From Lachnospiraceae bacterium (GTDB lineage Bacteria > Bacillota > Clostridia > Lachnospirales > Lachnospiraceae), in contig JAIKYU010000027.1 of NCBI GenBank assembly GCA_024682835.1, positions 1 to 64,000 of the forward strand: a stretch of DNA of 64,000 nt, given 5' to 3'. Under the pieces are notes generated by a model. The model had not been told where the DNA came from. It did not search any database and saw only the letters and a program-made list of their open reading frames with translations. The position numbers were made by a program, and so were the translations under genes. Shown in pieces: positions 2,862 through 40,608 of the stretch (positions are counted from its first letter, which is position 1; each line of letters starts with the position of its first letter).

Positions 2862-2899
2862 GGAATCCCTCCTGCCGTCAAATTCATCCTACATGTAGA

Positions 2900-2926
2900 A
2901 TATCGACCATGTGCCGCAAAAACTTA
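2900..2926 (-). promoter_or_regulatory. candidate sigma-28 (FliA/SigD) promoter upstream of flgK copy 1
   Basis: Minus strand reads TAAG-N15-GTCGATAT (consensus TAAA-N15-GCCGATAT), 39 nt upstream of the flgK ATG at 2861. Confidence 0.65.
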
Positions 2927-2951
2927 TACCCCGGGCAACACTTCTGTATAC

Positions 2952-4835: not shown

Positions 4836-4852
4836 AATGCCACCTCCTTGAT

Positions 4853-4895
4853 AAAAAAAGACCTCTGCCCGCCCTGGTATATCGAGTAGAGGTCT
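4853..4895 (-). terminator. candidate intrinsic terminator between flgN and flgK copy 2
   Basis: Minus strand AGACCTCT-N21-AGAGGTCT followed by a 7-T run; perfect 8-bp stem, but with a long loop. Confidence 0.5.
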
Positions 4896-4906
4896 GCATT
4901 CATTTC

Positions 4907-5425: not shown

Positions 5426-5444
5426 AAAAACCTTCCTCCGGTCC

Positions 5445-5741
5445 TTATGCGATCGCCTGCGCTGCCTCGAATTTCTCAAGCAGCTTGTCCGCAAAGCTCG
5501 CGCCGCTCAAGTTGTCATACTTTCCGCTTTCCAGATTCTGTCTGGCGACCGCAACCACATCATCGCGGATATCCGGAGCCTCCGCCACCGCTTTTCTCGC
5601 CGTCTGGAAGTCCTTGCCGATCTGGGAGATCTGCAGATTGTCCGACGGTGCGGCGGCCGCCGCATACGGGGTTTTATTGACCCGTGACGGCTTGCTCGCG
5701 GCATACACCTGTGAAATCGTGTTATACGCATCAATTCTCAT
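5445..5741 (-). CDS. flgM: anti-sigma-28 factor FlgM
   Basis: 98 aa, MRIDAYNTISQVYAASKPSRVNKT...DNLQISQIGKDFQTARKAVAEAPDIRDD; typical FlgM and gene order flgM-flgN-flgK. Confidence 0.85.
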   Translation of the reverse strand: MRIDAYNTISQVYAASKPSRVNKTPYAAAAAPSDNLQISQIGKDFQTARKAVAEAPDIRDDVVAVARQNLESGKYDNLSGASFADKLLEKFEAAQAIA

Positions 5742-20257: not shown

Positions 20258-21364
20258 TCAGGCGTCCCGTCTGGTCATCCCCGACAGATAGTCGCGCCAT
20301 CTGGCAAATACCGCCTCACCGCTCGCGATTTCCTGAATCCGCCGGGCTTCCCGTCCCAGACGCTCCGCAAAATCCTCATTCTCGATCAGGCGGTTCAGCG
20401 CGTCCGTCAGCGCATCCTCATTCTTGATCGGGATCAACAGCCCGTTTTCCCCGTCCCGGATCACCTCCGCCGGACCTCCGCAGGGACAGTCCGTCGCAAC
20501 GATCGGCATCCCGAGCGCCATCGCCTCCAGCAGCGAATTCGGAAGCCCCTCCCAGTCCGAGGTGAAGGCATATACCGCCCCCTTAGGCAGCTCCCGCTCC
20601 AGGGTGTCACATCCGCCCATCAGCAGGATCCACTCCTCCGCGTGATTCTCCGCGATGATCCGTTCCAGAATCTCCTTTGTCCCGTCAAAGGAATCCGGTC
20701 CGTATATTTTCAGCACGTAATCCGGATGCTTTTCATGCACACGCACAAACGCCCGGCACAACAGCGGCTGATTCTTGAAATCCACCAGACGGGCGTGATG
20801 CACGACGCTTTTGTCCCTTTTTTCGGGACGCGCCACGCCGAAATAACGCGGATTGACCGGATTCAGGATAATGGTCGAATGATCCTGCAGGTACGGCTTG
20901 AAAAAAGCGCGCTGTTGTTCCGTCTGGAACACGGCTCCCGCTGCCCGCGGAAACAGCCATCGGATCTGCACCTTATCCGAAAACGCATCGTAATGCCCGA
21001 TCGGATCCGTCCGCACGCAGACGATCACCGGAACCCCCGTTCCCTTTGAAGCCATGAGCGCCCGGTAATTGGCCCGCTGTGCAAAGGGAACGAGCACATC
21101 CGGCCGCTCCCTCTTTAAAAACTCCCGCAGATATTTCACGCGAAGCAGAAACTGAACGACACGGTTCTTCTTTTCGTCTCCCGGACGAAGTCCCACGTGC
21201 ACCCGCTTCACCCGCTCATCCAGCGGAAATTCATTTTCCTCCTGCCACTCCGTCGCGACAAAAACGCCGTATCCCTGCGCCGCAAATTCGTTGGCCAGAT
21301 TGGAGACCACGCGTTCCGCGCCGCCCTGGCAGAGACAGTTCAGATGGAAGGCAATCGTCTTCAA
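20258..21364 (-). CDS. glycosyltransferase family 4 (GT-B)
   Basis: FHLNCLCQGGAERVVSNLANEFAAQGY...YAFTSDWEGLPNSLLEAMALGMPIVATDCPCGGPAEVI; TTG start overlaps upstream stop (TTGA). Confidence 0.9.
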   Translation of the reverse strand: MKTIAFHLNCLCQGGAERVVSNLANEFAAQGYGVFVATEWQEENEFPLDERVKRVHVGLRPGDEKKNRVVQFLLRVKYLREFLKRERPDVLVPFAQRANYRALMASKGTGVPVIVCVRTDPIGHYDAFSDKVQIRWLFPRAAGAVFQTEQQRAFFKPYLQDHSTIILNPVNPRYFGVARPEKRDKSVVHHARLVDFKNQPLLCRAFVRVHEKHPDYVLKIYGPDSFDGTKEILERIIAENHAEEWILLMGGCDTLERELPKGAVYAFTSDWEGLPNSLLEAMALGMPIVATDCPCGGPAEVIRDGENGLLIPIKNEDALTDALNRLIENEDFAERLGREARRIQEIASGEAVFARWRDYLSGMTRRDA

Positions 21365-22287
21365 TACAGCAGCATCCCCGGTTCCAGCTTCAGCTCGCAT
21401 TCATAGCGGTCAATCAGAACAGAACCGTCCACCGTGCGGACAACCGGCCGGTCATCAAACACATAGGCGATCTCGCCCGGTGCAAACATCGAGAAGTCGA
21501 TCATTTCATCAAAGGGCTTCGCCTGCCAGATTGTGACCTTCTGTTCATACCCGGTGAAGCAGAAGGCGCCGGGGAACGGAGCCGCCACGCCGCGGATGAG
21601 GTTGTAGATGTCCCTCGTCCGGGCATGCCAGTCAATCTTGCCGTCCGCCGCCGTGCGCTTGTCAAACCAGCTGTCAAAATCCTTTGAATCCGTGCGGATG
21701 CGGATCTCTTCCCCGTTCAGATACTTTGTGAGCAGCTGCCGGATCAGCCGGTTGGTACAGATCATGTTTTTGTACTGCGCCGTCCGGATATCGTCATGTT
21801 CATTGATGGAGAACAGCTCCGTGGCAAAGACATTCGGAGAATCCGCCTCCTCGTCATACCGGAAGAGATTCAGGTGAAAACGGGTGTCCCCGAGAATCAT
21901 GGACCAGTTGAGGGGTGAGCGCCCGCGGCCGAAGGGCAGATAGCCCGCGTTGCCGTGAAAACCGAAGATGCCCAGTGCAAAGGCGTCCAGCACATGCTTC
22001 GGAATCAGCCGCTGCCAGCCGACCACCACGCCGATATCGAAGGTGTTCTCCGAAAAGAATCGCTTCGTCCTCTCATCCTTGAGGCCGTAGGTCTGTGCCG
22101 CAAAGACCGGTATCCCGTATTTTTCCTTTACGGAGGTGAGCCCCTTGTAGCCCGAGATCTGATTCCGGAAGGTCACCTCCGGATCGATGGTCACCAGCAG
22201 ATCCACCGGACAGATCTCCGTCCGGATAAAGTCAATGGTGACCTCCGATGTGTCCTTGACCCCGAATACCACTACCTTGTAATGCAT
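21361..22287 (-). CDS. formyltransferase family protein (likely sugar N-formyltransferase)
   Basis: MHYKVVVFGVKD...GVVVGWQRLIPKHVLDAFALGIFGFHGNAGYLPFGRGRSPLNWSMILGDTRFHLNLF: formyl_trans_N layout in a glycan operon. Confidence 0.75.
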   Translation of the reverse strand: MHYKVVVFGVKDTSEVTIDFIRTEICPVDLLVTIDPEVTFRNQISGYKGLTSVKEKYGIPVFAAQTYGLKDERTKRFFSENTFDIGVVVGWQRLIPKHVLDAFALGIFGFHGNAGYLPFGRGRSPLNWSMILGDTRFHLNLFRYDEEADSPNVFATELFSINEHDDIRTAQYKNMICTNRLIRQLLTKYLNGEEIRIRTDSKDFDSWFDKRTAADGKIDWHARTRDIYNLIRGVAAPFPGAFCFTGYEQKVTIWQAKPFDEMIDFSMFAPGEIAYVFDDRPVVRTVDGSVLIDRYECELKLEPGMLLY

Positions 22288-22300
22288 CGCACTTCTCCCG

Positions 22301-23275
22301 TCACAGATTCTCTTTGTACCACTCGATCGCCAGTGCGATTCCCGCCCGGAAATCGTAGGAGGGATCGTAGTGCAGCATTTCCCTTGCCTTTGAAATATCG
22401 GCATTTGAATCGCGGATATCGCCGGCCCGCGGAGGGCCGTAGATCGGTTCCACCGTGATGTCCAGCGCCTCGCAGAGATCGTTGTAGACGTCAATCAGAT
22501 ACTCCCTGCCGCCCGCACCGATATTATAGGCCTCGCCCGCTGCGGAGGAGGGCGCCAGACACGCCCGGAGATTGGCCTCAATCACATTGTCGACATAGGT
22601 AAAATCCCTGCTCTGCCTGCCGTCCCCGTTGATCGTCGGCTGTTCCCCGTTCAGGAGCTGGCGGAGGAATTTCGGAATCACCGCGGCATAGGCCCCGTTG
22701 GGATCCTGTCTTCTTCCAAACACATTGAAGTAACGCAGGCCGTAGGTGTCCAGATGATACAGCTTAAAATACAGCTTTCCGTACTCCTCGTCCGCCCGTT
22801 TGGTGAGTGCATAGGGGGACAGGAGATTCCCTTCCCCTCCCTCCTTTTTCGGAAGGACCGTCGAATCACCGTAAACGGAGCTGGAGGAGGCGTAGACGAA
22901 TTTCTGCACGCCGTTCTGTCTCGCGGCTTCCATCATGTTCAATGTCCCGCGGATGTTGATCTCCTCGTAGAGCAGCGGCATCTCGATGCTGCGGGGCACA
23001 CTGCCCCAGGCGGCCTGGTTCAGCACGAAGTGCACCCCCTCCGTCGCCCGTTTGCAGGCCTCAAGGTCCCGGATATCATCCTCCAGAAAAGTAAATTTCG
23101 GATTGGAAAGAAACGGCTCGATATTCTCCCTGTGTCCGGTCGAAAGATTGTCCAGGCAGCGAACGGTATACCCCTTGTTAAGGATCGCCTCACACAAATT
23201 GGAACCGATGAAGCCGGCGCCGCCGGTCACCAGAAACACACTGTCTTCCGGAAATGTAAGCTCTGAAAATCCCAT
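22301..23275 (-). CDS. NAD-dependent sugar epimerase (WbpP/TviC-type UDP-GlcNAc/UDP-GlcNAcA 4-epimerase)
   Basis: FLVTGGAGFIGSNLCEAIL...QAAWGSVPRSIEMPLLYEEINIRGTLNMMEAARQNGVQKFVYASSSSVYGDS...YALTKRADEEY: SDR with TGxxGxxG and YxxxK. Confidence 0.85.
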   Translation of the reverse strand: MGFSELTFPEDSVFLVTGGAGFIGSNLCEAILNKGYTVRCLDNLSTGHRENIEPFLSNPKFTFLEDDIRDLEACKRATEGVHFVLNQAAWGSVPRSIEMPLLYEEINIRGTLNMMEAARQNGVQKFVYASSSSVYGDSTVLPKKEGGEGNLLSPYALTKRADEEYGKLYFKLYHLDTYGLRYFNVFGRRQDPNGAYAAVIPKFLRQLLNGEQPTINGDGRQSRDFTYVDNVIEANLRACLAPSSAAGEAYNIGAGGREYLIDVYNDLCEALDITVEPIYGPPRAGDIRDSNADISKAREMLHYDPSYDFRAGIALAIEWYKENL

Positions 23276-25786: not shown

Positions 25787-26559
25787 GCGCCCTTCTCCTT
25801 TCCCTTTCCTTTGGAACCCTTTTCCACCAGAAATCTCTTGGCCTGTGCCGTCAGCCGCTCCACTCTCTGACCGAAATCCGACCGCCTCACGGTCGGCTCG
25901 AACAGCAGCGTTTTATAAGCAATCAGGCGCGCTTCCGAAAACAGGGCCTCCACGCGTGCAAAATCCTCCTCTGTCATGGAATTGACATGATAGACCAGCG
26001 TGGCGGTTCCCTCCGTCTTTGACTGCACTGCCTGCTTCTGCGATCGCGTGATCGGATAAAAGGTCAGTTCTCTGTAACGGTACGGATCACTGCCGAAGCC
26101 GTCCGTCACACGCCGGAAGCCGCAGGCTTTCAGCGCTTTCAGGGTGTTCTCATCATAGCTGTGGGACGGGGCCATGAAGATGTCCGTCGCAAGCCCCAGC
26201 TCCTCCATCCGCCGAACGCCCTCCTGCAGCAGCTTTTCCTGCTCCTCATAGGGAAGCCCGGCAAATTCCGATTTCCGGTTGAGCGGAAAGATGCCGCCGT
26301 CCTGCGTTGTGTAGACATGATGTACGCCATGCATGGCAACCTCAGCTCCCTGGCTCCTGAACTCCCGGATCCGTCCGGCAAATTCCTCCGCAGGAACCGT
26401 TGTGACACCCTCTCCGTTAAGAAGCTTTTCATCCGTGCAATCCGGAATCACACCGAGAAGTGGCTTTGCCTGATATCTGTCAAGCAGCGCCGTCATGCGC
26501 TCAAACCGGTCCCAGCACATGGCCGGTGCGATATCATCAAGCCGCACCGCAAGCCGCAT
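25783..26559 (-). CDS. DUF2334/polysaccharide deacetylase-like protein
   Basis: MRLAVRLDDIAPAMCWDRFERMTALLDRYQAKPLLGVIPD...EVAMHGVHHVYTT...FMAPSHSYDENTLKALKACGFR. Confidence 0.75.
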   Translation of the reverse strand: MRLAVRLDDIAPAMCWDRFERMTALLDRYQAKPLLGVIPDCTDEKLLNGEGVTTVPAEEFAGRIREFRSQGAEVAMHGVHHVYTTQDGGIFPLNRKSEFAGLPYEEQEKLLQEGVRRMEELGLATDIFMAPSHSYDENTLKALKACGFRRVTDGFGSDPYRYRELTFYPITRSQKQAVQSKTEGTATLVYHVNSMTEEDFARVEALFSEARLIAYKTLLFEPTVRRSDFGQRVERLTAQAKRFLVEKGSKGKGKEKGA

Positions 26560-27875
26560 CAGAGCCTCCAGTAATCATATTCCGCCGAAGGAAACGCCGC
26601 TTTGTCATAGATTCCCTTGATGTCAAACAGCACCCGCATCCGGTTGCCCTCAGCGAAAAATGAATCAATCTGCGCCCTGTCCATCGATGCCAGATAGGTA
26701 TGCGCCACCGCGACGATCACGGCATCCATGTCCTTTACCAGCTCCTGCCTTGCAAGCTTCAGGCCGTATAGCCGCTCCGCCTCGGCGATGTCCGCCGTCT
26801 CATCGGAAACAACCGGATCGATCCCGTATTCCCGAAGCTCCCGCACGATATCAATCACCTTCGTGTTCCGGGTGTCCGGGCAGTTCTCCTTGAAGGTGAA
26901 ACCGAGAATACCGACCCGTGCGCGCTTCACCGGAATATCCGCCGCAATCAGACGCTTGACCAGCGACTCCGCGATGTACTTGCCCATATCGTCGTTTATG
27001 CGCCTGCCCGACAGGATAATCTGGGAGTGATATCCCATCTCCTCCGCCTTGTAGGTCAGATAATAGGGATCCACACCGATGCAGTGTCCTCCCACCAGTC
27101 CCGGGGAGAAGGGCAGGAAATTCCATTTTGTGCCCGCTGCGGCGAGCACCTCTTTCGTATCGATTCCCAGCCTGTGGAAGATCATGGAGAGCTCGTTCAT
27201 AAATGCAATATTGATGTCCCGCTGACTGTTCTCAATGACCTTGGCGGCCTCCGCCACCTTGATCGACTGCGCGCGGTAGACACCTGCCAGCGCGACCATC
27301 TCATAGACATGCGCCACCTCATCCAGCGTCTCCTCGTCCATGCCGGAAACAATCTTGGTTATGGTGGAAAGGCGATGCACCTTATCCCCGGGATTGATCC
27401 GCTCCGGCGAGTAGCCCACCTTGAAATCCACCCCGCAGGTCAGTCCGGATTCCCGCTCCAGAATCGGCACGCAGATATCCTCCGTGACGCCGGGATAAAC
27501 GGTCGACTCATAGACCACGATGGAGCCCTTTGTGAGGTTTCTGCCCAGAATCTCGCTCGCACTCTCCACCGGTGTCAAATCCGGGGTGTGATCCTCGTTG
27601 ACAGGTGTCGGGACGGCAACGATATGAAATTTTGCCTCCTTTAACCGTGCAGGATCCGACGTAAACTCAATGGCCGTCTTTTTGATCTCCTCATCACCGA
27701 CCTCGTTGGTCGGATCAATACCGCTTTTGTAGAGCTCGATCTTGGTCGTGCTGGTATCAAATCCAATCACACGGATGCTTCCCGCAAATGCGTGGGCGAT
27801 CGGCATTCCCACATAGCCAAGTCCCACAAGGGAAAGCGCTTCCTCCCTGTTTTTCAGCTTCTCATACAGACTCAT
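26559..27875 (-). CDS. tviB: nucleotide sugar dehydrogenase, TviB/WbpO type
   Basis: LSLVGLGYVGMPIAHAF...IVVYESTVYPGVTEDICVPILE...GYSPERINPGDK...FLPFSPGLVGGHCIGVDPYYLTYKAEEMGY...GFTFKENCPDTRNTKV. Confidence 0.9.
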   Translation of the reverse strand: MSLYEKLKNREEALSLVGLGYVGMPIAHAFAGSIRVIGFDTSTTKIELYKSGIDPTNEVGDEEIKKTAIEFTSDPARLKEAKFHIVAVPTPVNEDHTPDLTPVESASEILGRNLTKGSIVVYESTVYPGVTEDICVPILERESGLTCGVDFKVGYSPERINPGDKVHRLSTITKIVSGMDEETLDEVAHVYEMVALAGVYRAQSIKVAEAAKVIENSQRDINIAFMNELSMIFHRLGIDTKEVLAAAGTKWNFLPFSPGLVGGHCIGVDPYYLTYKAEEMGYHSQIILSGRRINDDMGKYIAESLVKRLIAADIPVKRARVGILGFTFKENCPDTRNTKVIDIVRELREYGIDPVVSDETADIAEAERLYGLKLARQELVKDMDAVIVAVAHTYLASMDRAQIDSFFAEGNRMRVLFDIKGIYDKAAFPSAEYDYWRL

Positions 27876-27906: not shown

Positions 27907-29925
27907 CTACTGCACCCGCAGTGCGGAATATCCTTCCACATTCAGGGAGAAATCCGAACGATCCAGCGAGAAATTCGGATTGTAATACGGATCTCCCGCC
28001 TCCAGCACTTCGCGCCATCTGTCGCGGAACCGTTCGCATTCCCTTTCGTAGCGGGCCGCATTCTCTCCTGTCAAATCGTCCCCCCGCGAGGCGGATTCAT
28101 AATGGGTCAGCTCCGCGAAGGGCGTAAAGACATTCACATATCCCTTCTGTCTGAGCTTCAGGCAGAAGTCCACATCATTGAGCGATACGGCCAGCCGCTC
28201 GTCAAAGCCGCCGACCTCGTCATACTTGCTTCGCTCGACCATCAGGCAGGCTGCCGTCACGGCGGACATATTCTGCGCATAGCACAGTCTCCCCATATAT
28301 CCGAGATTCTGTCCGGCCTGCTTGTAATGCACATGCCCGGCCGTTCGGTGCGCACCGAGTCCCAGGACGATTCCCGCGTGCTGGATCTTCCGGTCGGGGA
28401 AATAGAGCTTGGCGCCGACAGCACCCACATCCTCGCGCTGCGCATACATCAGCATCTCTTCCATCCAGTTGATCGTGATCACCTCGGTGTCGTTGTTTAA
28501 CAGGAGAATGTACTGGCCCCTGGCCTGCCGGACGCCGAAATTGACCACCGCCGAGAAGTTGAACGACTCCTCCGCCCTGCGGTGGAAATCAAGCACCCGG
28601 ATCCGTTCCCGCATGGGGCCGTCCTCAAATGATTCATAAAGGCTGGCAATCTCCCGGGTCGTCGACCCGTTCTCCACGATAATGATCTCATAATTATCCC
28701 ACGTGGAACGGGTGTAGATCGACTCCACCAGGCGCTGTAAATCCTTTGCGTGGTCGCAGTTGGGAATGATGATGGAGATTCTGGGCGTCTCGCGGATCTC
28801 GTAACTGATTTTGAAGATCGTCTCGAAGGCCCGGGTGCTGGTGATCTGGAAATGCTCAAAGCCGTGCCTGCGCAGGTGATCCGCCACCGCGCCTCTCGCC
28901 GCCTCGATCGCATAGTGCTTTGCTTCAATATTGGACGCCGTGGAGCCGGCATGGGAACGCCAGTAATACAACAGACGCGGGATGTGCACGATCTTCTGCG
29001 CACGGTCGGTGAGCCTGAGGATCATATCATGATCCTGACTGCCGTCATACTGCGAACGGAAAAGCTCCTGTCCGTCGAGGAGCGAGCGCCTGAACATGGA
29101 AAAATGGCAGATGTAGTTATTGGCCCTGAGGTTGTCGATGGCATAGTCCGGCTTGAAATGCATGGTGATCATCCGGTTGATGTCATCCCCTTTGAAGGTC
29201 GCCTCATCACAATACAGATAGTCGGCGCCCTTCTCATTGATCTCCCGCACATACGCATACAGCGCGGAGGGATGCAGCACATCGTCGTGATCCAGCAGCG
29301 CGATGAAATCCCCCTCCGCCAGGGTAAGCGCCGCGTTGGTGTTGCCGGAGATGCCCTTATTCTCCGGAAGATGCCTGTAGATGATCCGCTCGTCATTTTC
29401 CGCATAGCTGCGGGCAATCAGTCCGACCGCCGCATGATCCAGATCCGAGCCGTCCGCCAGACAGAGCTCCCAGTTCGGATAGGTCTGGGCCAGTACCGAT
29501 TCGATCATTTCCCTGAGATATTTCTCCGGCGTGTTGTACAGGGGGGTCAGGATACTGATCTTGACCATCGAGGCAAAGCGCGCCTGCGATTCCTCTTTGC
29601 GCTGCTCCTCATTCGGAAAGCTCTCCGTGCCGTAGTAGGAGAACGCCTGTCTCTCCTTTCTTTTGTAGCGGATTCTGGCAATGACCCCGCGGAGACTCCC
29701 CTGATTCCGCAGCCGGTCGAATTGCCGGATCACCCAGTGCATCACGGCACGCGCGGGCGCAGAAGCCTTCCAGATCGGATTTCCCTTGATCCGGTTCAGC
29801 TGGAACTCCAGCTCCCTCTTCTCATTTTCCAGCATGGCCACCCGTTCGGCCAGGGCGGCACTCTTGAGCTTTTCTCTCGCCAGCGCATCAAATTCCCGCG
29901 TTGCGACTCTTCTTTCCTCTTCCAT
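27907..29925 (-). CDS. tandem GT2 glycosyltransferase with N-terminal coiled-coil-like region
   Basis: Coiled-coil-like N-terminus, then ISILTPLYNTPEKYLREMIESVLAQTYPNWELCLADGSD and a second ISIIIPNCDHAKDLQRLVESIYTRSTWDNYEIIIVENGS...LLLNNDTEVI. Confidence 0.88.
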   Translation of the reverse strand: MEEERRVATREFDALAREKLKSAALAERVAMLENEKRELEFQLNRIKGNPIWKASAPARAVMHWVIRQFDRLRNQGSLRGVIARIRYKRKERQAFSYYGTESFPNEEQRKEESQARFASMVKISILTPLYNTPEKYLREMIESVLAQTYPNWELCLADGSDLDHAAVGLIARSYAENDERIIYRHLPENKGISGNTNAALTLAEGDFIALLDHDDVLHPSALYAYVREINEKGADYLYCDEATFKGDDINRMITMHFKPDYAIDNLRANNYICHFSMFRRSLLDGQELFRSQYDGSQDHDMILRLTDRAQKIVHIPRLLYYWRSHAGSTASNIEAKHYAIEAARGAVADHLRRHGFEHFQITSTRAFETIFKISYEIRETPRISIIIPNCDHAKDLQRLVESIYTRSTWDNYEIIIVENGSTTREIASLYESFEDGPMRERIRVLDFHRRAEESFNFSAVVNFGVRQARGQYILLLNNDTEVITINWMEEMLMYAQREDVGAVGAKLYFPDRKIQHAGIVLGLGAHRTAGHVHYKQAGQNLGYMGRLCYAQNMSAVTAACLMVERSKYDEVGGFDERLAVSLNDVDFCLKLRQKGYVNVFTPFAELTHYESASRGDDLTGENAARYERECERFRDRWREVLEAGDPYYNPNFSLDRSDFSLNVEGYSALRVQ

Positions 29926-29949: not shown

Positions 29950-32208
29950 CTACTCTGACACAGCCCGTTCGGGGCCGATCCACATCCTGTTTTCCACCCA
30001 GTTGACCAGCCGCTGTCTGGAGGTCTTGTCAATTGCCAGCATGCCGATCTGATACAGGCCCTCCGGCAGAGCTTCCTTTTCCAGCCGCACCCGGTATCCG
30101 GTCAGATCGACGTGGATCTGATCCGCAAGTCTGTCCCTGATATCCGGCCGATACCAGTCATTCGCCGGAAGAGACCAGACATCCGCGTCCGGAACCAGTG
30201 CTTTGCCCGTTCCGTCCGCCGTGTCCCTCTCCACCAGTCTGCGCAGCAGCAGACGCCTGTCATAGCAGGCATTGTCCGCGCCGATGACAAAAGCATAGCC
30301 CTTCAAATAGTAACCGGTTGCCGCATCCCCTCTTTTTCCGGTGATCCAGTACTCCAGCGTGTCACAGTACTCCACACCGACGCGCAGGACCGGATCAACC
30401 GGGACGTCCTTAAGTCCCTCCGTGTGATGGGAAAGATTACCGAAAGGCAGCTCCTCCGGCTCCGTTACCTCATAGAGCGGCGTGATGTCGCTGATATGCT
30501 CGTCCTCCACCAGGTGCGGCGAGTAGAAGGGATCTATGTTGTACAGCTGTTCATGTCTCCCCATCAGGATCCGGTGCTCGCCGGCCAGGCGTTCCATCTT
30601 GGCCTGATCCAGCGTGTCCAGTCCCCGGGAAAGGGATTCATGATGTCTGAGCATCACATGATTGCACTGCACATTGTAAAAGCCCTGTTCATAAAGGGTG
30701 TAGCACAGATCCACATCGTTGAAGGCCACAGCCATGTCTTCCGGCAATCCCCCGGCGGCTTCATACTTCTCCCGGCCGATCATCAGGCAGGCGCCGGTCA
30801 CGCCCAGCAGATCGTGGATACCGCGATTGAAACCGAAGTAATGCACCTTTTCATCACTCAGGTACTGGAGCTTATGCATGGGACCGAGCCGCACGTTGGT
30901 GACACCGGCGTGCTGAATCTTGCGTTTCACATACCCGCCATCGCGCGGATCCGCCGGCCGTCCGGTCTCGTTTTCCGGATCCTGCTCCGGATAGAGAAGC
31001 TTTGCTCCCACGGCACCGACATACGGCCGCACGGCCATCAGCGTCATCTCCTTAAGCCACCCCGGCGATTCCGCCGTGATATCGTCATTCAAAAAGAGCA
31101 GCAGCCCGCCCTTCGAGGACTGTGCGCCCAGATTACACATCCTCGAGAAATTGAACTCCATGGGCTGATGGATGTACCGGATGTTGGTCAGCCCGTTTGT
31201 CCGCGGCATTTTGGCCACAAAATTGGCAATCAGCAGTTTGTTGTAGCCCGTGCTCCCGTTGTCGACGATGATAATCTCGTACGGACAGGATGAATCACAG
31301 GTCTCCGCGATGGAATCCAGACACTTCTTCAGAATGTCCGGATGATCCTTGGTCGGGATAATGATGGAAACCAGGCGGTCAGAGACATCCTCCGGCATCC
31401 CGGACATCGGCAGGAGGAAGTGCGCGGATTTGTTGACTGCCGCCGTCGGATACTTTCTGCCGTGGAAAAGATCCCGGCCCTCCTCCAGGTGAAACAGGAT
31501 CTCTCCGATATGGCCGACGGGAAACTCTTCTCCCCGGCGCCGCAAAAACCCTCCGGCCGCAGTGGCCACCTTGAGAAACAGCGCATCCGCCAGACCGCTC
31601 AGAAGCTTGCCCCTCGTTTTTTTCTGCTCCTCCGTGAGCGTCTCCGCAGGTGCGTGGAGCAGCGCGTTTTTCAACACACTGCCGCGCACGGCAAAAACAC
31701 TGCCCACATAGAAGGAGGACAGATAGGTATCCGGCGACCAGTCCGGCTTGAAATAAGGTTGATCGTAGCTTCCGTCCGGAAGCAGCACATCCTCGTCCCC
31801 GTAGACAAGCTTTCCCGTCGGGTGCTCCGTAAACCATCTGTAGATGAGCGGAGCCGCGCTTGCGGACAGTCGCCCCTCCTTTCTGGCAAAGATGACGATC
31901 TCGCTGTCCTCACACTTTAACAGCGCGCCGCTCTCAATAAATTTCTCGATATCCGTATACAGCACGCAGAGCAGGCAGGGAATCTCCACATCGGACGCTC
32001 CCTCCGCGCCGGCGGGTGCGCTCTCCGTTTCCGTCTGTTCCGCCGCGTCCCCAAAATACCGCACCGTGCAGCTTCCCGCGAGGCCGATAAACAATTCGCG
32101 TCCACGCTCCCACCGGTCATGGGTTTCTCTGAGTTCCTCCAGCCGCTTTTCATACTGCCTGTCCTGTCTGCCGATCAGTATGCCGCGTACCCTGTCCTTG
32201 ATTGCCAC
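29950..32208 (-). CDS. GT2 glycosyltransferase, multidomain
   Basis: VSIIIPTKDHPDILKKCLDSIAETCDSSCPYEIIIVDNGSTGYNK...LLLFLNDDITAESPGWL. Confidence 0.87.
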   Translation of the reverse strand: MAIKDRVRGILIGRQDRQYEKRLEELRETHDRWERGRELFIGLAGSCTVRYFGDAAEQTETESAPAGAEGASDVEIPCLLCVLYTDIEKFIESGALLKCEDSEIVIFARKEGRLSASAAPLIYRWFTEHPTGKLVYGDEDVLLPDGSYDQPYFKPDWSPDTYLSSFYVGSVFAVRGSVLKNALLHAPAETLTEEQKKTRGKLLSGLADALFLKVATAAGGFLRRRGEEFPVGHIGEILFHLEEGRDLFHGRKYPTAAVNKSAHFLLPMSGMPEDVSDRLVSIIIPTKDHPDILKKCLDSIAETCDSSCPYEIIIVDNGSTGYNKLLIANFVAKMPRTNGLTNIRYIHQPMEFNFSRMCNLGAQSSKGGLLLFLNDDITAESPGWLKEMTLMAVRPYVGAVGAKLLYPEQDPENETGRPADPRDGGYVKRKIQHAGVTNVRLGPMHKLQYLSDEKVHYFGFNRGIHDLLGVTGACLMIGREKYEAAGGLPEDMAVAFNDVDLCYTLYEQGFYNVQCNHVMLRHHESLSRGLDTLDQAKMERLAGEHRILMGRHEQLYNIDPFYSPHLVEDEHISDITPLYEVTEPEELPFGNLSHHTEGLKDVPVDPVLRVGVEYCDTLEYWITGKRGDAATGYYLKGYAFVIGADNACYDRRLLLRRLVERDTADGTGKALVPDADVWSLPANDWYRPDIRDRLADQIHVDLTGYRVRLEKEALPEGLYQIGMLAIDKTSRQRLVNWVENRMWIGPERAVSE

Positions 32209-32219: not shown

Positions 32220-34373
32220 TCACTCCTGCATATTTCTGCCGCGTCTTTTCAGCTTTGCAAACAGTCCGCCGCGCTCCTCTTCTGTCTCATGCAGCGGGAA
32301 GCCTTCACTCTCGTTCAGGCCCTCCTCGACGGAGCCCGCCACCTCCGCGGGCAAAAGCGCCGTCGTCAGAGTGACGGTCAGCCGGTTCTTCTTCTCCCGC
32401 TCCGCCACCGCAATGCCGAATTCAATTCCCGGATCATCCTTGGCAAACAGAATGCTGTCCGCACCGATCCAACGCCCGTTCGGATGAATCGTCACCACCG
32501 GTGCCCGCTCACCTACGGACACTCCGTTCCACGCCACCCGCTGCAGGGTCACAAGACAGGGGACAAATGCCGGATCAATTCGAAGCGCCCGGGTCCCCGG
32601 GAGCAGATCGATCTCGAGCGTAATCGCATGATGCCTGTTGTAGTGTTCATCGGCAAAATAGGAATTATCCTCCGAGAAACCCTCACCGATATCACTGTAG
32701 ATCTGCACCGTGAGCGGATCCCTCTCCTGAAGCGTCTCCGTTTCCACCTCCAGCTCCCTGGGCACGGTTGCACGCTTGCCGATTCCCTTCCAGATCTCCA
32801 CCAGACTTAAGCGATCGCCGGTGACATACTTCTGAAAGCTTGCCTCCTCCGCGATCAGACGGTCCACTTCCTCCTTCGTAAGATCCAGTTCCTCGTAGAA
32901 CGGCTTCGGATCGAGCACACGCCGCTTTTTGTCCTCGAGCCGGTAGCAGTAGATAGCCCGGAACGCGATGTCCCGCGCGGGAATCCGCTTTCCCCAGGTC
33001 CACTCATAATCAATGACCGTCCAGATCGGGCCGTTCACCAGAATGTTCGGGAAGATGAGATCAAAATCCGCTACCGCTTCCTCCTCCCCGTAGCGGATAC
33101 GCCGCAGGTACTCCGCGAAAAGCCGGTGGAAGTTGACCATATCATCCTTGAAAAGACAGTAATCCAGCAGCTCCGAAAGCGGAATCCCCGCTGCAAACGA
33201 GAATTTCGCAACCGTTCCCGTCGCATCCAGCTGGCAGTCGTTGATCTCCAGATCACTCCCGCGGAAGCGGTTGGCCAGCGCCGTATAGGCGGATCGCATA
33301 CTTTTCACATGCTCCGTAGCCGCCGGTGTCAGGGGATGTTTTTCGATCACCCGCCGGCCATCCGGCTCGATGGTGATATCCGTGCGGATCCGGAACTCCT
33401 CCGCACGGTCTCCGGAGTACTTGGAAAAAATCGTGGAGAAGCCCGGACCGATCACCAGTTCAAAGGAGTTGGCAAAGGTCGGATACAGTCCGTCGCGGAT
33501 CAGTCCCTCATAGGCACGCTTCTCGTTGAACAGGATCAGCCGGTCGCTGTCATAATTGTAGACATTGTCCATCAGATCGCTCGCCCGGGGAAGGTACTGA
33601 TCGGAGAAAAGCAGATTCATAAACTTGTAGTCCGGATACGGATAGTAGAAATGGTAATTCTGTATACCGAGACTCTTGAGGATCCGGATCAGCCCGTTGC
33701 GGGAGAAGGTGGTGGCCACGGAGTCCGGACGGTAGCCCTGAATTCCCGAAAAATAAGTTCCCAGATGATCCTCCACACAGCCCGCGAAATACTTCAGACC
33801 CAGACGGTTCTCGATCGCGATGACGATCCGTCCGCCGGGCGTCAGATGTCTGAACAGCATCCGCAGAAAATTCTCATACGGCTGCTCGGTCCCGATATAC
33901 CCCTGGGCGTACTCAAACACGCCGATCAGGAAAATGAAATCATAGTTGGCCGGCAGATCCGGTTCAATATCACGGAAATTGCCGACATGAATTGTCACAT
34001 TGCTGCAGGTGTTATTGCGCACCGCATTGATTTCGCTCCGCTTCCTGGAGAGATCGACCGCCGTGACCTCTCCCGCTTTGGCGGCCAGCATGCCCGTGAT
34101 GGCTCCGCATCCGCTTCCGACCTCCAGCACACGCTCGTCTCCCCTCATCGGAATCCACTCGATGATGTTGCTGCGCTCTCTGGAGAGATGATAGAAGATC
34201 GGCCAGCTCCGCTCCTGCTCGATGATCGACGGAAACTCCTCCGGGCGGTGATTGCGGACAATGCCGAGAATCTCGTCCTCCACCTCTCCGTCGCTGTAAA
34301 GATCCATTCCGGAGTAATGCCGGAAATTCAATGTCACTTCGCCGATTTTAAAGATTTCCTGCTGCATAGGCAC
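32220..34373 (-). CDS. SAM methyltransferase fused to a kinase-like domain (WbdD-like architecture)
   Basis: MT motif I VLEVGSGCGAITGML; later DFDLIFPNILVNGPIWTVIDYEWTW resembles the catalytic/metal-binding loops of APH/choline-kinase folds; C-terminal beta-rich region. Confidence 0.65.
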   Translation of the reverse strand: MPMQQEIFKIGEVTLNFRHYSGMDLYSDGEVEDEILGIVRNHRPEEFPSIIEQERSWPIFYHLSRERSNIIEWIPMRGDERVLEVGSGCGAITGMLAAKAGEVTAVDLSRKRSEINAVRNNTCSNVTIHVGNFRDIEPDLPANYDFIFLIGVFEYAQGYIGTEQPYENFLRMLFRHLTPGGRIVIAIENRLGLKYFAGCVEDHLGTYFSGIQGYRPDSVATTFSRNGLIRILKSLGIQNYHFYYPYPDYKFMNLLFSDQYLPRASDLMDNVYNYDSDRLILFNEKRAYEGLIRDGLYPTFANSFELVIGPGFSTIFSKYSGDRAEEFRIRTDITIEPDGRRVIEKHPLTPAATEHVKSMRSAYTALANRFRGSDLEINDCQLDATGTVAKFSFAAGIPLSELLDYCLFKDDMVNFHRLFAEYLRRIRYGEEEAVADFDLIFPNILVNGPIWTVIDYEWTWGKRIPARDIAFRAIYCYRLEDKKRRVLDPKPFYEELDLTKEEVDRLIAEEASFQKYVTGDRLSLVEIWKGIGKRATVPRELEVETETLQERDPLTVQIYSDIGEGFSEDNSYFADEHYNRHHAITLEIDLLPGTRALRIDPAFVPCLVTLQRVAWNGVSVGERAPVVTIHPNGRWIGADSILFAKDDPGIEFGIAVAEREKKNRLTVTLTTALLPAEVAGSVEEGLNESEGFPLHETEEERGGLFAKLKRRGRNMQE

Positions 34374-34381
34374 CGCCGTCT

Positions 34382-35662
34382 CTATTCCACCGTGATTTGG
34401 GAATTCATGTCATAATAACCGACCGTATTCTTGTCCGACACCACCGTCATGGCCAGTGCGTCGTACCGTCGCTCGTAAACCGTAAAATCATCTCCTTCAA
34501 AGCCCGTCACACCGAAGGAGAGAAGATATTCCCCTCCCTGCAGGTCGATGGTCTGCCTGAAGCGGATGGTTTTCCTTTCCCCTGCCCGGACGCTTTCAAG
34601 AAACGCCTTTTCCACCATGGTATTGGTGCCGGTGATCTCAATTCCCAGCGCATTCTTGATGGTAAAGGCAAAAATCGGCTTTTCGATATCGCGGAGGATT
34701 TCCACCTCCATGGTCACCTCGCAGACACTCCCCTTGATGATTGCAGCCGTTTTGCGTCCCTGATCGTCCGAAAGAGACACGGAAAGAATCCGCGCACCGC
34801 CGTTGCCGTACTGGAGTTCCTCGCTTTTTGCGCCCTTTTGAACGGCATCCCGCGCTTTGGCGCGTATTTCCTCGTCATCCAGCAGGTTCTTTTCTCCGCT
34901 GCCCTGCACGGGGGTCTGTCCGACCAGCACCTGCTTATACAGGTCAATCATCTTTTTCGGTGTGCCCTCCCCGAGCTTTCTGCCCCGGTGCAGGAGCACC
35001 GCGCGGTCGCAATACTTGCTGATGCTCGAAAGGTCATGGGAGACAAAGAGAATCGTCTTGCCCTGCTCCTTGAACTCCTCAAATTTGTGATAGCATTTGG
35101 CCTGAAAGAACACATCGCCCACCGAGAGAGCCTCATCCACAATCAGGATTTCCGGGTCGATGTTGATGGCAACCGCAAAGGCCAGCCGGACAAACATACC
35201 GCTGGAATAGGTCTTGCACGGCTGATAGACATAGTCCCCGATATCCGCAAAAGCCAGGATCTCATCCAGCCTGGCGTTGATTTCCTCCTCGGAAAAGCCG
35301 ATCATCATCCCGTTCAGGTAGATATTGTCTATCCCGTTGTACTCCATGTTGAAACCCGCACCCAGCTCAAGCAGCGCGGAGATCCTGCCGTCCACCTGCA
35401 CCTCACCCTGTGTGGGCGTCAGCACACCGGTGATGATCTTTAAAAGCGTTGACTTGCCCGAGCCGTTGGTTCCGATAATGCCGACGGTTTCTCCTCTGCC
35501 GATCGTCAGATCGATATGATCAAGCGCCAGATGTTCGCTGTAGAGCTTTTTCGAGGTCAGACGCAGCGCATCCCGCAGCCGGTCGGAGGGCTTGCCGTAC
35601 AGCTTGTATTTTTTCGATATACCGGAAACGATAATAGCCGGTTTCGTCATGGACATTTTCAT
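34382..35662 (-). CDS. wzt: polysaccharide ABC exporter ATPase with C-terminal Wzt_C-like domain
   Basis: VGIIGTNGSGKSTLLKIITGVLTPTQGEVQVDGRISALLELGAGFNMEYNGIDNIYLNG; extra C-terminal ~145 aa starting YGNGGARILSVSL. Confidence 0.92.
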   Translation of the reverse strand: MKMSMTKPAIIVSGISKKYKLYGKPSDRLRDALRLTSKKLYSEHLALDHIDLTIGRGETVGIIGTNGSGKSTLLKIITGVLTPTQGEVQVDGRISALLELGAGFNMEYNGIDNIYLNGMMIGFSEEEINARLDEILAFADIGDYVYQPCKTYSSGMFVRLAFAVAINIDPEILIVDEALSVGDVFFQAKCYHKFEEFKEQGKTILFVSHDLSSISKYCDRAVLLHRGRKLGEGTPKKMIDLYKQVLVGQTPVQGSGEKNLLDDEEIRAKARDAVQKGAKSEELQYGNGGARILSVSLSDDQGRKTAAIIKGSVCEVTMEVEILRDIEKPIFAFTIKNALGIEITGTNTMVEKAFLESVRAGERKTIRFRQTIDLQGGEYLLSFGVTGFEGDDFTVYERRYDALAMTVVSDKNTVGYYDMNSQITVE

Positions 35663-35713: not shown

Positions 35714-36724
35714 TTACAGCACATCGGCGAAATGGATCTTTGACCGCTTAAACACCAGCGAGCCGAACAGGAAGACCGACACCGCAAAGATCCAGAAATA
35801 GGTCGACGAATAAAAGTGCTGCCAGAACCAGCCCTCCCCGTAGATCGACATGCGGTATCCTTCCACAATGTAGGTCATGGGGTTGAGCTTGATGATCCAC
35901 TTGTACCGGTCGTCCAGCATCCCGATATTCCACAGGATCGGGGTCGCCCAGGTGCCCAGCTGCAGCACGATGGAAATGATCTGCAGCAGATCCCGGAAAA
36001 ACACCACCACGGCGCAGGTCGTGTAGCTGATCGCCAGCACAAGAAAAAACTCGCAGAAGCCGTAATAGAATATCTGGAGGGTGTACACCGTCGGATAATA
36101 GCCGTACAGCGCCGCGACCACGAGGCAGACACCCGCAAAGAAAACATGAATCACAGTTGCCGCCAGGATCTTGATCAGCGGGAGAATGCTGATTTTGAAC
36201 AGCACCTTCTTGACCAGATAATTGTACTCCAATAACGCCGTCGTTCCGTTCATCAACGCCTCCTGGAAGTAAAACCAGGGGACCAGTCCGGCCGTCAGGA
36301 ATAGCACATACGGAATATCCATACCGCCGGCCGCCATCTCCGAGCGCGCCTTGAAAATCCGGTCGAAGACGAACCAGTACATCATGACCGTCACCACCGG
36401 CTGCAGCAGCGCCCAGACCACGCCCATGTAGGAGCCCGCGTATCGTTTTTTAAAGTCGTTGATGGCAAGCCTCGTGATCAGCCGTCTGGAATGAAACAGC
36501 TCCACAGGCAGCACCATCCATCGGTCATAGAAGGCGGCAAACACAAATACTGCCAGCCCCAGAAGCACGCAGGCGCAGATTTTTTTCAGACGTTCCGTCT
36601 CCCAGTCCGCAAGCGGATTGGTGTGCAGCACCACCGCCAGCGCCAGTCCGCAGGCGGCGCCGATAAATATCGTCAGAATCAGCTTTTTATATCGGATCCC
36701 CGGTGTCTGCTGTTCTGTCATCAT
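35714..36724 (-). CDS. wzm: polysaccharide ABC exporter permease (Wzm/TagG family)
   Basis: NDFKKRYAGSYMGVVWALLQPVVTVMMYWFVFDRIF...YNYLVKKVLFKISILPLIKI...WATPILWNIGMLDDRYKWIIKLNPMTYIVEGYR. ATG 36724 overlaps upstream TGA. Confidence 0.93.
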   Translation of the reverse strand: MMTEQQTPGIRYKKLILTIFIGAACGLALAVVLHTNPLADWETERLKKICACVLLGLAVFVFAAFYDRWMVLPVELFHSRRLITRLAINDFKKRYAGSYMGVVWALLQPVVTVMMYWFVFDRIFKARSEMAAGGMDIPYVLFLTAGLVPWFYFQEALMNGTTALLEYNYLVKKVLFKISILPLIKILAATVIHVFFAGVCLVVAALYGYYPTVYTLQIFYYGFCEFFLVLAISYTTCAVVVFFRDLLQIISIVLQLGTWATPILWNIGMLDDRYKWIIKLNPMTYIVEGYRMSIYGEGWFWQHFYSSTYFWIFAVSVFLFGSLVFKRSKIHFADVL

Positions 36725-37551
36725 TCCTCTCCATAGTTGCTTCCCGCAGTTTCTGTGGGTTCCCCGGGCGGCACCGTCACGCCGGCCGACGGATCGGGTG
36801 TCCATGTCCCCGGCACGGCTCCGGTCAAAGCTCCGGTCATGCCTTCGCCCGGCATGCCAGCCCCGGCCGTTCCGTCAGACCCCCCTTCACCTGCTCCGGT
36901 CATGCCGTCTGCTGCATTCTCCGCAGAACGTCCGGATGCGCCCCCGGTTGCGTCCGTCTTTTCGGAAGGCAACGGCTGATCTATCTTTACCACCACCGGC
37001 GCGGAGGGCACCTCATATCCCTGGACACCGAGCAGATAAAGCCGATAGCTGCCGTTCTCCAAACCGGTCATGTCCAGCTGTCCGTCCCGGTCCGTATCGG
37101 TCCAGGTTCGTTCCCTGCCGGTTCCCGGAAGCTTCGCGGTCACCTGAAACGCCACGCCGCTCTCAAGTCCTCCGCGCTCATTGATCACGGAAAGATGGAT
37201 GCTGTCCCCGTTTACCGTCGCCTGCAGGGTCAGCTGCTCATCGCTTCCGTCACTGATCCCGCGCACATCCCGCATGGGATCAAAGAAACTCTCATCGTAG
37301 AGAAAGCCCCGGGGTTGATTCCCGATCAATTCCCCATAGGCAACAAAGCCGCTGTCCGCGACCTGCAGCGCTCCCTCTGCTGCCGCGACACCTGCTTCCG
37401 TCCCGGTTGATCCGTCCGCCGTCGCCGCGGCGGACCCTGAATTTCCTGTATGACGCCTGTTCCCTGTATTGGCCGCATACACCACCAGAAGAATCAGTGC
37501 GATTGCGCTGATTGACAGCAGTACCGCCAGGCGTACTGTCTTCGCATCCAT
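36721..37551 (-). CDS. type-II membrane-anchored protein with Cna-B-like domain and low-complexity tail
   Basis: N-terminal TM RLAVLLSISAIALILLVVYAA; FQVTAKLPGTGRERTWTDTDRDGQLDMTGLENGSYRLYLLGVQGY; Gly/Thr/Pro-rich C-terminus. Confidence 0.7.
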   Translation of the reverse strand: MDAKTVRLAVLLSISAIALILLVVYAANTGNRRHTGNSGSAAATADGSTGTEAGVAAAEGALQVADSGFVAYGELIGNQPRGFLYDESFFDPMRDVRGISDGSDEQLTLQATVNGDSIHLSVINERGGLESGVAFQVTAKLPGTGRERTWTDTDRDGQLDMTGLENGSYRLYLLGVQGYEVPSAPVVVKIDQPLPSEKTDATGGASGRSAENAADGMTGAGEGGSDGTAGAGMPGEGMTGALTGAVPGTWTPDPSAGVTVPPGEPTETAGSNYGEE

Positions 37552-37611: not shown

Positions 37612-40545
37612 TCAGTAATTCAGGTAGGATACATTCAAGTCCACCTTGCCGGAGATTCCCTTGATGGAGCCCTTCGAGGTGTACTGCCAGATATCGAACC
37701 GTGTCCGCGTGTAGGTGGGCTGTGCCACATACTGTGCCAGCCACAGCTTATACTCGGAGAGAGACGGTGTGTCGATCATTTCCTCCATCCAGTTTTTGTT
37801 TGCATAGAGACCCGTTCGGTAACCGGAATTGGCCATGGTCGCGCAAAACGCCCGGATGATGGCTGTCCGTTCACTTGCGCCGAGCTTGTCCGCACGTCCC
37901 TTTCCGGAATCGCTGCGCTCCACATCCAGAAAGACCGGATAGGCCAGCGAATAGCCGCTGCAAAGGGAAGCGGCCATCGAAGCTTCCTCCACCGCCTCCA
38001 CATCACTGACCGCCGCCGAGAAGAAGTAGGCGCCGACCTTCAGCCCCGCATTCAGCGCTCCGCGCATGTTGCTGTGAAACATGGAGTCCTCCACGAGCAC
38101 GCCGGTGGAGGTGCCGCGGAATCCACAGCGGATGATGGCATAGTTGACACCGGAATTTTTCACCGCCTTCCAGTCGATGCTGCCGTTCCATTTGGACACG
38201 TCAACGCCGAGAATCCCCGCTCCGCCGGACAGGATGCCGTCGGAGGCAAAATGGTAGGAGACCCCCTGAATGATCTGATCTCCGGTGACATAGTTTCCGT
38301 TTTTATCGAAGAAATAGGTGTGACCGTCCAGCGTCTGCCAGCCGTGATAGACGATCTTCGTTCCTCCCGAACGCAGGTAAAAGGTGCTCGCCGTATAGTA
38401 ATCGGCGGAGGTGGCTTCGCGGTACTTATCCCCGTCCCGGACGTAGACCGTCTCCCCCTTCTTCGTCTTCAGCACCTTCCCGTCGGTGACGGTCACCTCG
38501 CAGACGGCCTTGATGTCCTCGTCGTCCCGCCAGGCAATTGTAATTTTTGCCTTTCCTGCCTTTACGCCCTTCACCTTTCCGGTTTCGGCATCCACCGCGG
38601 CAATCTCTTTGTCGGATGTCTGCCAGAGCAGGTCTTCCTTTTCCAGTCCCTCCAGCTTGACGGTGAGCTCCGCGCTGTTTCCGGTATAGAGGGAGAGTTT
38701 TTCCGGCTTGACGGTGATTTTCTTTTCCTTTTCCGCCTCTACGACGGTAACGGTGCAGGAGGCGTACAGGCTGTCATCGCTGTCCGCCCTCGCGGTGATG
38801 ACAGCGGTGCCGACCTTCTTTGCCGTGACGGAGCACTGTGTATCATTTTTGATGCTGCACTCAACGGTGTCGGTTTCACCCGAGATGTCAAAGGTAAAGC
38901 TCTGATTTCCCTCAAGGCCCGTATAGGTCACCATGATCACCGTCGTGTATCCGACCTCCAGCGTCACCTCCGAAGGGGAGACCGCGATGCTTTTCTCCTC
39001 CGTGATCACAGGCTCGGTCTCCTCGATGGGCTTCTCTTCCGTGCCGCCCTCTTCGCCGATCACAGGAGCACGCAGCATCCTGCCGCTGCCCGTTTTCCTG
39101 GCCTGTGCGTCCGTCTGCGGTTCCGTCAGATCGGATTTTGAGACCTCCGCATAGGTGTAGGTACCGTCCCCGGCATCCGTTTCCTCCTTTGAGGATTCCA
39201 CCCATTCCACGGTATCCACGTTGACGGACTCCACCGCTGCCGCTTCCCTGGGCTCCGTATCCTCTGCGGCGACATTTACCTGGGATTCCTTTTTGATCTC
39301 ATCCGCGACATCCACCTTTTTATATTCGATCTTATCCTTTACCGTGGCCGTCTTCGGTTTGGTATCAGCCTTGTAGCGATCCTTGTATTCCGCTTCCGGC
39401 TCCCGCATGGCGATGCTCCAGGTGCCGGCGCTCAGCCCGGTCTTGTAGATCACGCCGTCCATGTCGTCGTCCGGCCAGGTCTCTTCCTTACCCGAAGGCG
39501 ATTTGGCCGTCACGGAAAAAGGCAGGTTGGCCACCAGCTTCCCTGTGTCCGCATTGGTAAATTTGATCTTCAGATCGCTTTTGATCGTGGTGAGCCCCAT
39601 GGCCACCGAAATCTGTTCCTCTTCGGGCTCAGGCTCCGGTTCTTCGACCGGCTCCTCCTTCTGCGCAGGGATCTCTTCCTCCTCCGGTACCTCCTCCATG
39701 CGGAGAGCCGCCGCATCCCGCATGGCGATCAAGCCGCTTTCACCGATGATCTCCAGCTTCCCGAGATCGGAACCGATCTCCGAAAAGGCCTGCAGCTCAC
39801 TGTTTTGTCCGCGCATCCGGAAAAACATTACGCCGAGCGATACCACCACGATCAGCAGCAGGGCGCTCATGGCAATGGCCGCCCACTCCATGGTCGTGAG
39901 CGAGGAGGCTGCTTTGCGGTGTCCCTTCTGTCTTTTCCCGGGTCTCCTGTGTGCGGACTGCCTGTGCGCCTGAGCTTCATGCGGCGCGGTCAGACGTTCC
40001 TCTTCCTCCTCGACATCCTCCTCATCCGGCCTGTTTTGGATGTTCACGGCAGCCGGAGCCGGGATATAACGCAGATTCGGCGTTCTGTCCTCAAAGTCTT
40101 CCTCGTCGTCCTCGTCGTAGAACTCCGGCTCGGTTTTGTCGTAGGCATCGTACTCCGCGGGAGCCCGATCGCCGGCTTCCAGATCCGCGATTCCTTCCGG
40201 TATCTGCTCGAACTTCTGTGTGAAGGAACGCACCTCTTCATCCGAGAGCAGTTCCTCGTCTTCCTCATCGGGTTCCTCTGCCTCGTCGGTCAGCGACTCC
40301 TCGCTTCCCGCGCGATCCCAGGTGTCCGCATCCAGACTTTCGGCCAGATCCTCGATGGGTTCCTCCTCGTCCTCATACTCCTCCTCATCCTCGATCTCGT
40401 CCGCATCCTCCCGCAGGTAGGCGTCTTCCTCGTCGAGCTCCAGGAGATCCTCCGCATCAAAACGGGCCGTGTCGTAGGAATTCTTTTTTCCTCCGAAGCG
40501 CGGTTTCCGCGTGTGATGCTTTGTTTTTTGAGAAGGGTTTCCCAT
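37612..40545 (-). CDS. membrane-anchored GH25 muramidase with acidic cytoplasmic N-terminus and bacterial Ig-like repeats
   Basis: C-terminal GILGVDVSKWNGSIDWKAVKNSGVNYAIIRCGFRG...AYFFSAAVSD...YPVFLDVERSDSGKGRAD...WQYTSKGSIKGISGKVDLNVSY (GH25). Two Big-type repeats, one TM (AAIAMSALLLIVVVSLGVMFF), Asp/Glu-rich N-terminus. ATG 40545 has GGGGGAG upstream. Confidence 0.88.
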   Translation of the reverse strand: MGNPSQKTKHHTRKPRFGGKKNSYDTARFDAEDLLELDEEDAYLREDADEIEDEEEYEDEEEPIEDLAESLDADTWDRAGSEESLTDEAEEPDEEDEELLSDEEVRSFTQKFEQIPEGIADLEAGDRAPAEYDAYDKTEPEFYDEDDEEDFEDRTPNLRYIPAPAAVNIQNRPDEEDVEEEEERLTAPHEAQAHRQSAHRRPGKRQKGHRKAASSLTTMEWAAIAMSALLLIVVVSLGVMFFRMRGQNSELQAFSEIGSDLGKLEIIGESGLIAMRDAAALRMEEVPEEEEIPAQKEEPVEEPEPEPEEEQISVAMGLTTIKSDLKIKFTNADTGKLVANLPFSVTAKSPSGKEETWPDDDMDGVIYKTGLSAGTWSIAMREPEAEYKDRYKADTKPKTATVKDKIEYKKVDVADEIKKESQVNVAAEDTEPREAAAVESVNVDTVEWVESSKEETDAGDGTYTYAEVSKSDLTEPQTDAQARKTGSGRMLRAPVIGEEGGTEEKPIEETEPVITEEKSIAVSPSEVTLEVGYTTVIMVTYTGLEGNQSFTFDISGETDTVECSIKNDTQCSVTAKKVGTAVITARADSDDSLYASCTVTVVEAEKEKKITVKPEKLSLYTGNSAELTVKLEGLEKEDLLWQTSDKEIAAVDAETGKVKGVKAGKAKITIAWRDDEDIKAVCEVTVTDGKVLKTKKGETVYVRDGDKYREATSADYYTASTFYLRSGGTKIVYHGWQTLDGHTYFFDKNGNYVTGDQIIQGVSYHFASDGILSGGAGILGVDVSKWNGSIDWKAVKNSGVNYAIIRCGFRGTSTGVLVEDSMFHSNMRGALNAGLKVGAYFFSAAVSDVEAVEEASMAASLCSGYSLAYPVFLDVERSDSGKGRADKLGASERTAIIRAFCATMANSGYRTGLYANKNWMEEMIDTPSLSEYKLWLAQYVAQPTYTRTRFDIWQYTSKGSIKGISGKVDLNVSYLNY

Positions 40546-40608
40546 CCGCACAAACTCCCCCGTTCCGGAAAGGCAATTCCGGAGCGTCATCAAATCATAA
40601 TCCGTGTT

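Follow-up and report, generated by a model that had tools for sequence, protein, structure and literature searches.

The window (the whole stretch of 64,000 nucleotides analysed) encodes a protein of 715 or 717 aa that is probably a bifunctional terminator of a monoderm surface glycan: it would phosphorylate and then methylate the chain end, and the capped chain would pass to an ABC exporter that recognises the cap. In the cytoplasm, the neighbouring GT2 enzymes would lengthen a lipid-linked chain. By analogy with ORF6 of Klebsiella pneumoniae O7 and with WbdD of E. coli, the kinase domain would phosphorylate the non-reducing terminal sugar, the methyltransferase domain would methylate the terminal phosphate and chain growth would stop. 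Wzt_C would then bind the capped end, and Wzm-Wzt would export finished chains only. The enzymatic activity, the methyl-phosphate cap and its terminal position are predicted by this analogy, and the final acceptor of the glycan would be possibly peptidoglycan, reached through an LCP protein. Support is drawn, from sequences and a predicted model, from the domains, catalytic residues, gene order, co-occurrence with Wzt_C, homology to the O7-type protein and absence of outer-membrane markers. Against this reading stand the lack of a coiled coil in the terminator, the low TM score to WbdD (0.18) and an Asp at the position of ORF6 E112.

Gene module and host

The module comprises the following features.

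35714..36805 (-), wzm, ABC-2 type polysaccharide export permease (Pfam ABC2_membrane, E 2.2e-13)
34382..35662 (-), wzt, whole gene, 426 aa
34922..35629 (-), wzt nucleotide-binding domain, residues ~12-247 of 426 (Pfam ABC_tran, E 4.4e-23; top PDB match the ABC transporter 8dku, E 2.6e-77)
34406..34819 (-), wzt C-terminal Wzt_C domain, predicted to bind the glycan cap, residues 282-419 (PF14524, 137 bits)
32220..34373 (-), terminator, methyltransferase/kinase, 717-aa ORF
33459..34367 (-), terminator methyltransferase domain with SAM motif EVGSGCG (Pfam Methyltransf_12/11/25)
32781..33434 (-), terminator protein-kinase-like domain, residues ~314-531 (AlphaFold, Foldseek, family profile)
33045..33062 (-), kinase catalytic loop D438-L-I-F-P-N443 (invariant columns of family alignments)
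32355..32705 (-), terminator beta-sandwich, CBM-like, residues ~557-673 (AlphaFold secondary structure; aligns with the same region of the Pseudomonas 1457-aa protein)
32220..32312 (-), terminator disordered tail, residues 688-717 and stop codon (pLDDT <50)
29950..32208 (-), GT2-type glycosyltransferase, 752 aa, module member (Pfam Glycos_transf_2, E 4e-15)
27907..29925 (-), double GT2 glycosyltransferase, 672 aa (Pfam Glycos_transf_2, two stretches, E 2.9e-49)

Read along the minus strand, the order is wzm, wzt, methyltransferase/kinase, 752-aa glycosyltransferase and 672-aa double GT2 enzyme. Both ORFs named in the first-pass annotation are present. The start of the longer one probably has to be moved to the ATG at 34367, which gives 715 aa, because four close relatives (81-86% identity) begin there, at MQQ; the stop codon of wzt is 14 bp upstream of this likely start. 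The closest named relatives are Lachnospiraceae MAGs, several of them from rumen. The wzm product has a weak match, under cut-off, to the NCBIfam galactan Wzm, and its position directly 5' of wzt is kept in relatives, where the 752-aa GT2-type gene is also next to the terminator. The 672-aa double GT2 enzyme is homologous to the GT2 pair that follows the terminator in the fusion proteins of Pseudomonas and some Lachnospiraceae, and is probably the polymerase or part of one. A candidate coiled coil at its N-terminus was rejected, as its heptad score lies inside the shuffled range.

The C-terminal extension of the ATPase, earlier described as resembling Wzt_C, is unambiguously a Wzt_C domain according to sequence profiles, by which its fold was also assigned. 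It scores 137 bits with Pfam Wzt_C against a cut-off of 30.4, and a profile of 15 relatives matched PDB entries 2R5O (E 5.5e-14), 8dku (9.8e-8) and 5hno (5e-5). The sequence of 2R5O matches the C-terminus of the O9-type Wzt of E. coli HS, and hhalign of Wzt_C with the E. coli HS O9 Wzt gave 97.9%. By analogy, the domain would recognise the capped non-reducing end.

The source genome is 98% complete. Judged from its gene content the bacterium is a monoderm, as the first-pass annotation had thought probable, because neither LpxC nor Omp85 is found in it and an LCP protein is present. The lipid A and outer-membrane markers of an LPS O-antigen system, searched for as LpxC and Omp85, are thus missing from this genome.

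Terminator domains and related proteins

The proposed WbdD-like order of methyltransferase, kinase-like domain and further C-terminal region was borne out by Pfam, AlphaFold and Foldseek, with the last region now recognised as a beta-sandwich and a disordered tail of the last 30 residues in the AlphaFold model. Residues 78-188 match class I methyltransferase families (Pfam Methyltransf_12/11/25, E ~1e-10), and E84, G86, G88, G90, Y26, Y61 and Y155 are invariant in the family alignment. For the kinase region the HMM searches gave a divided result: no family was named by Pfam or NCBIfam, but the kinase-family profile matches JAK1, GCN2 and a lanthipeptide kinase at weak E-values (0.006, or 3.5e-4 with the full-length profile), with catalytic Lys, Asp and Asn in register. 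The AlphaFold model of this domain has a high-confidence two-lobe kinase fold (pLDDT mostly >90), and Foldseek matched it to PRPK, RIO, GCN2, MPH (macrolide) and APH (aminoglycoside) kinases, as had been expected of the second domain. Family profile, AlphaFold and Foldseek agree that the middle domain is a protein-kinase-like enzyme; the single sequence comparisons are weak. K345 of the N-lobe, D438, N443, D455 and E457 are invariant in 40 homologous sequences, a set that includes eight free-standing or differently fused kinase genes. Taken by itself, the beta-sandwich has matches in other proteins of the relatives, 463-703 aa long (G016:C50:9083-9382, G096:C15:32283-32561, G171:C1:6231138-6231473 and G369:C4:21938-22261); two of these lie close to Wzt_C genes, and the beta-sandwich may be a mobile glycan-binding module.

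This conservation bears on a very improbable alternative, in which the cap would be a simple methyl ether of the kind known from E. coli O8 or Geobacillus WsaE, with the kinase domain in a structural or regulatory role. If the domain were vestigial, loss of its catalytic residues would be expected, but all of them are invariant in the 40 sequences, free-standing genes included. In favour of a methyl ether, the kinase is more divergent than the methyltransferase across relatives, and methyl-only caps are known in Gram-positive S-layer glycans with Wzm/Wzt (PMC2943079). In Geobacillus stearothermophilus, WsaE acts on such an S-layer glycan, which is exported by Wzm/Wzt and bears a 2-O-methyl ether cap (PMC2943079). 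The system resembles that of the window by description: the host is Gram-positive, wzm and wzt are directly upstream, an N-terminal methyltransferase is linked to GT modules, and a chain-terminating methyl cap read by Wzt has been proposed; no kinase is described for WsaE, however (PMC2943079). The kinase is therefore an element beyond what is described for Geobacillus. With this methyl-capped system described, cap-and-export is not without precedent among monoderms.

The terminator and WbdD share a methyltransferase followed by a kinase in one polypeptide, beside wzm and a wzt with Wzt_C. Foldseek aligned the terminator with the WbdD structures 4azt, 4azw and 4ax8 over 509-533 columns (E ~1e-8, TM 0.17-0.19). 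The match to 4azt covers both catalytic domains (E 1.2e-8, 524 columns), but a whole-chain TM of 0.18 indicates that their relative arrangement is not that of WbdD. WbdD also has a coiled-coil ruler and no described beta-sandwich, and the terminator the reverse. BLASTP against E. coli HS WbdD gave no match (E >4), hhalign matched the methyltransferase core only, weakly (44%), and left the kinase unmatched, and the kinase profile did not match WbdD either. Direct homology to WbdD of E. coli O8/O9/O9a was rejected by BLAST and hhalign. The first-pass comparison with WbdD thus holds for domain order and proposed function, by analogy, but family membership is unsupported by sequence.

As far as sequences allow, the closest relative is not WbdD, and the Pseudomonas/Klebsiella-O7-type protein is the better one. 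A tblastn search of plasmids recovered proteins of Pseudomonas asturiensis and Citrobacter braakii, each encoded directly behind wzm and wzt. The Pseudomonas asturiensis protein from pCC1524 (WP_024686765.1) is 1457 aa long, and hhalign matched the terminator family to it over all three domains (100%, E 1.9e-48, 629 columns). Its C-terminus contains a GT2 pair 41% identical to the product of 27907-29925. It differs from the terminator in being a single fused polypeptide of predicted function, with a probable coiled coil and then two GT2 modules. On an E. coli KTa005 plasmid (L052:8877-16583), a 1787-aa glycosyltransferase behind wzm-wzt was found unrelated to the terminator; these three genes adjoin rhamnose genes, and another kind of terminator may be involved there.

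Klebsiella pneumoniae O7 ORF6 has the layout methyltransferase, unannotated kinase, Ig-like CBM, coiled coil, GT2 and GT2 (PMC11231755). In vitro, it phosphorylates and then methylates terminal rhamnose to form a methyl-phosphate cap, and the substitution D441A abolishes the kinase step; according to its authors, the kinase differs from that of WbdD (PMC11231755). WP_024686765.1 has Y28, Y66, G91, G93, E112 and Y158 at the residue numbers published for ORF6 (probability by chance ~1e-8). The equivalents in the window protein are Y26, Y61, G86, G88, D107 and Y155, with Asp replacing Glu at the E112 position. Catalytic Asp 441 of ORF6 corresponds to D438 of the window protein, which, like the predicted metal ligands N443 and D455, is invariant in the 40 sequences. 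The link to ORF6 appears strong but is indirect, because it runs through WP_024686765.1 by architectural match and published residue numbers. ORF6 and the window protein share the order methyltransferase, kinase and beta-sandwich/CBM, with Wzm/Wzt in the cluster. ORF6, however, extends further, with a coiled coil followed by two GT2 modules, whereas no coiled coil was seen in the window protein and a gene of its own encodes the GT2 pair; ORF6 also belongs to a Gram-negative O-antigen system, and the window protein to a monoderm glycan.

The coiled coil has been called a characteristic marker of this termination strategy (PMC11231755). None was detected in the terminator by a simple home-made heptad score, which did detect the coiled coil of WbdD (488-599) as a positive control. 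Ruler-type control, as a form of the chain-length control that the first-pass annotation proposed, is therefore unsupported here.

Distribution, linkage and modularity in Lachnospiraceae

The search set consisted of 150 Lachnospiraceae genomes, one per genus, with the source genome included. The terminator matched in 89 of them at E <=1e-3, and 72 genomes besides the source matched at E <=2e-22; the system is present in about half of the sampled genera. Contrary to the first-pass annotation, it is at this frequency not unusual for a monoderm of this family, and Geobacillus offers a described case of a methyl-capped glycan exported by Wzm/Wzt (PMC2943079). Outside the family it is sporadic, with ~5 clear cases in 250 Bacillota genomes. 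A broad Bacillota distribution, suggested by matches in 140 of the 250, was rejected, as nearly all weak matches are short generic methyltransferase-core stretches.

Chance can be ruled out as an explanation of the arrangement because it recurs in 72 relatives. Among the 59 strong carriers, which were those examined first, Wzt_C lies <=500 bp upstream on the same strand in 49 and <=5 kb away in 55. A Wzt_C of the matching subtype (>=134 bits) is present in 70 of the 72 non-source carriers, usually directly upstream, versus none of the 61 genomes that lack a terminator match; 12 of these 61 have some Wzt_C above cut-off, the best at 107.8 bits. The contrast between carriers and non-carriers is close to complete, in genomes that are related and so allow no formal test of independence. 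The cap-and-export reading is well supported by the conserved gene order and by this tight co-occurrence with one Wzt_C subtype, with its chemistry taken from the analogues.

An unlikely alternative is that the enzyme decorates internal sugars or a fixed-length oligosaccharide with methyl-phosphate or phosphate and terminates no polymer. It would suit a terminator without a coiled-coil ruler, and the large downstream cluster, whose many single GTs would be in keeping with a complex heteropolymer. It is at odds with the almost complete association with an exporter domain of cap-binding type, and with the proven systems, in which the terminal residue is what the CBM of Wzt recognises (PMC11231755).

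The order wzm, wzt with Wzt_C, methyltransferase/kinase, GT and double GT2 recurs across Lachnospiraceae, with the modules joined in different ways. In the window form, methyltransferase, kinase and beta-sandwich are in one protein and the GT2 pair is separate. In some relatives the methyltransferase is a separate gene (~300 aa) followed by a kinase gene, in others the kinase is fused to GT2 modules (978-1039 aa), and in some all modules are fused (1238-1890 aa), which makes Rosetta-stone fusions of methyltransferase, kinase and GT2 pair. Fused forms are present in relatives L056, L057 and L058; in two of the fused forms the stretch between kinase and GT scores strongly as coiled coil.

The relatives with separate adjacent genes give some room to a further reading, by which the kinase acts on a nucleotide sugar, lipid carrier or protein rather than on the glycan end, and the methyltransferase acts separately; where the genes are separate, both enzymes need not share one substrate, and the Foldseek matches include RIO/PRPK-type protein kinases and antibiotic kinases. 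This is hardly probable: the methyltransferase-kinase fusion occurs in many genera and a kinase-GT2 fusion in others, which points to a glycan substrate, and the same architecture acts on a glycan in Klebsiella O7 (PMC11231755).

Surrounding cluster and significance

Several other genes of the window belong to the same cluster or border it. A pseudaminic acid synthase, PseI (18446-19495, 478 bits against a cut-off of 340), is encoded among the glycan genes of this minus-strand run. The same strand carries flagellar genes at 870-5494 (FlgN, an FlgK-type protein and a second FlgK_D1 protein) beyond the glycan cluster, PseI being encoded upstream of them, and it is possible that part of the cluster serves flagellin glycosylation. 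The best NCBIfam matches of 26559-27875 and 22301-23275 are the Vi-capsule proteins TviB (dehydrogenase) and TviC (epimerase), both below cut-off; these genes suggest a HexNAc uronic acid precursor. The cluster also contains a bacterial sugar transferase, a possible chain initiator (10309-11721), a polysaccharide pyruvyl transferase (9110-10363) and a formyltransferase (21361-22494). Upstream, it is bordered by the gene of a GH25 lysozyme-family protein (37612-40593, 993 aa) that has Big_2 and choline-binding repeats.

Literature searches turned up no paper describing quality-controlled export of capped polysaccharides in Lachnospiraceae. The novelty is nevertheless limited to a variant, because the termination strategy has already been called widespread in the ORF6 paper, where a homologue in the archaeon Methanoculleus is named (PMC11231755). 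New here are the split of the terminator from the polymerase, the lack of a coiled coil and the family-wide occurrence in monoderms.

Lachnospiraceae are Gram-positive bacteria that abound in gut and rumen. A tentative proposal, rated somewhat below even, is that a methyl-phosphate-capped, ABC-exported glycan is a general component of their envelope, made with a coil-less terminator split from the polymerase. If this is true, chain length would be set by non-ruler means, for example by the beta-sandwich or by stoichiometry with the transporter. The window form would let chain-length control be studied without a coiled-coil ruler. The fusions and splits across Lachnospiraceae show a rearrangement of termination, polymerisation and export modules. 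Should the capping reading hold, about half of Lachnospiraceae genera make a glycan with a chemically defined end group, traceable by 31P NMR.
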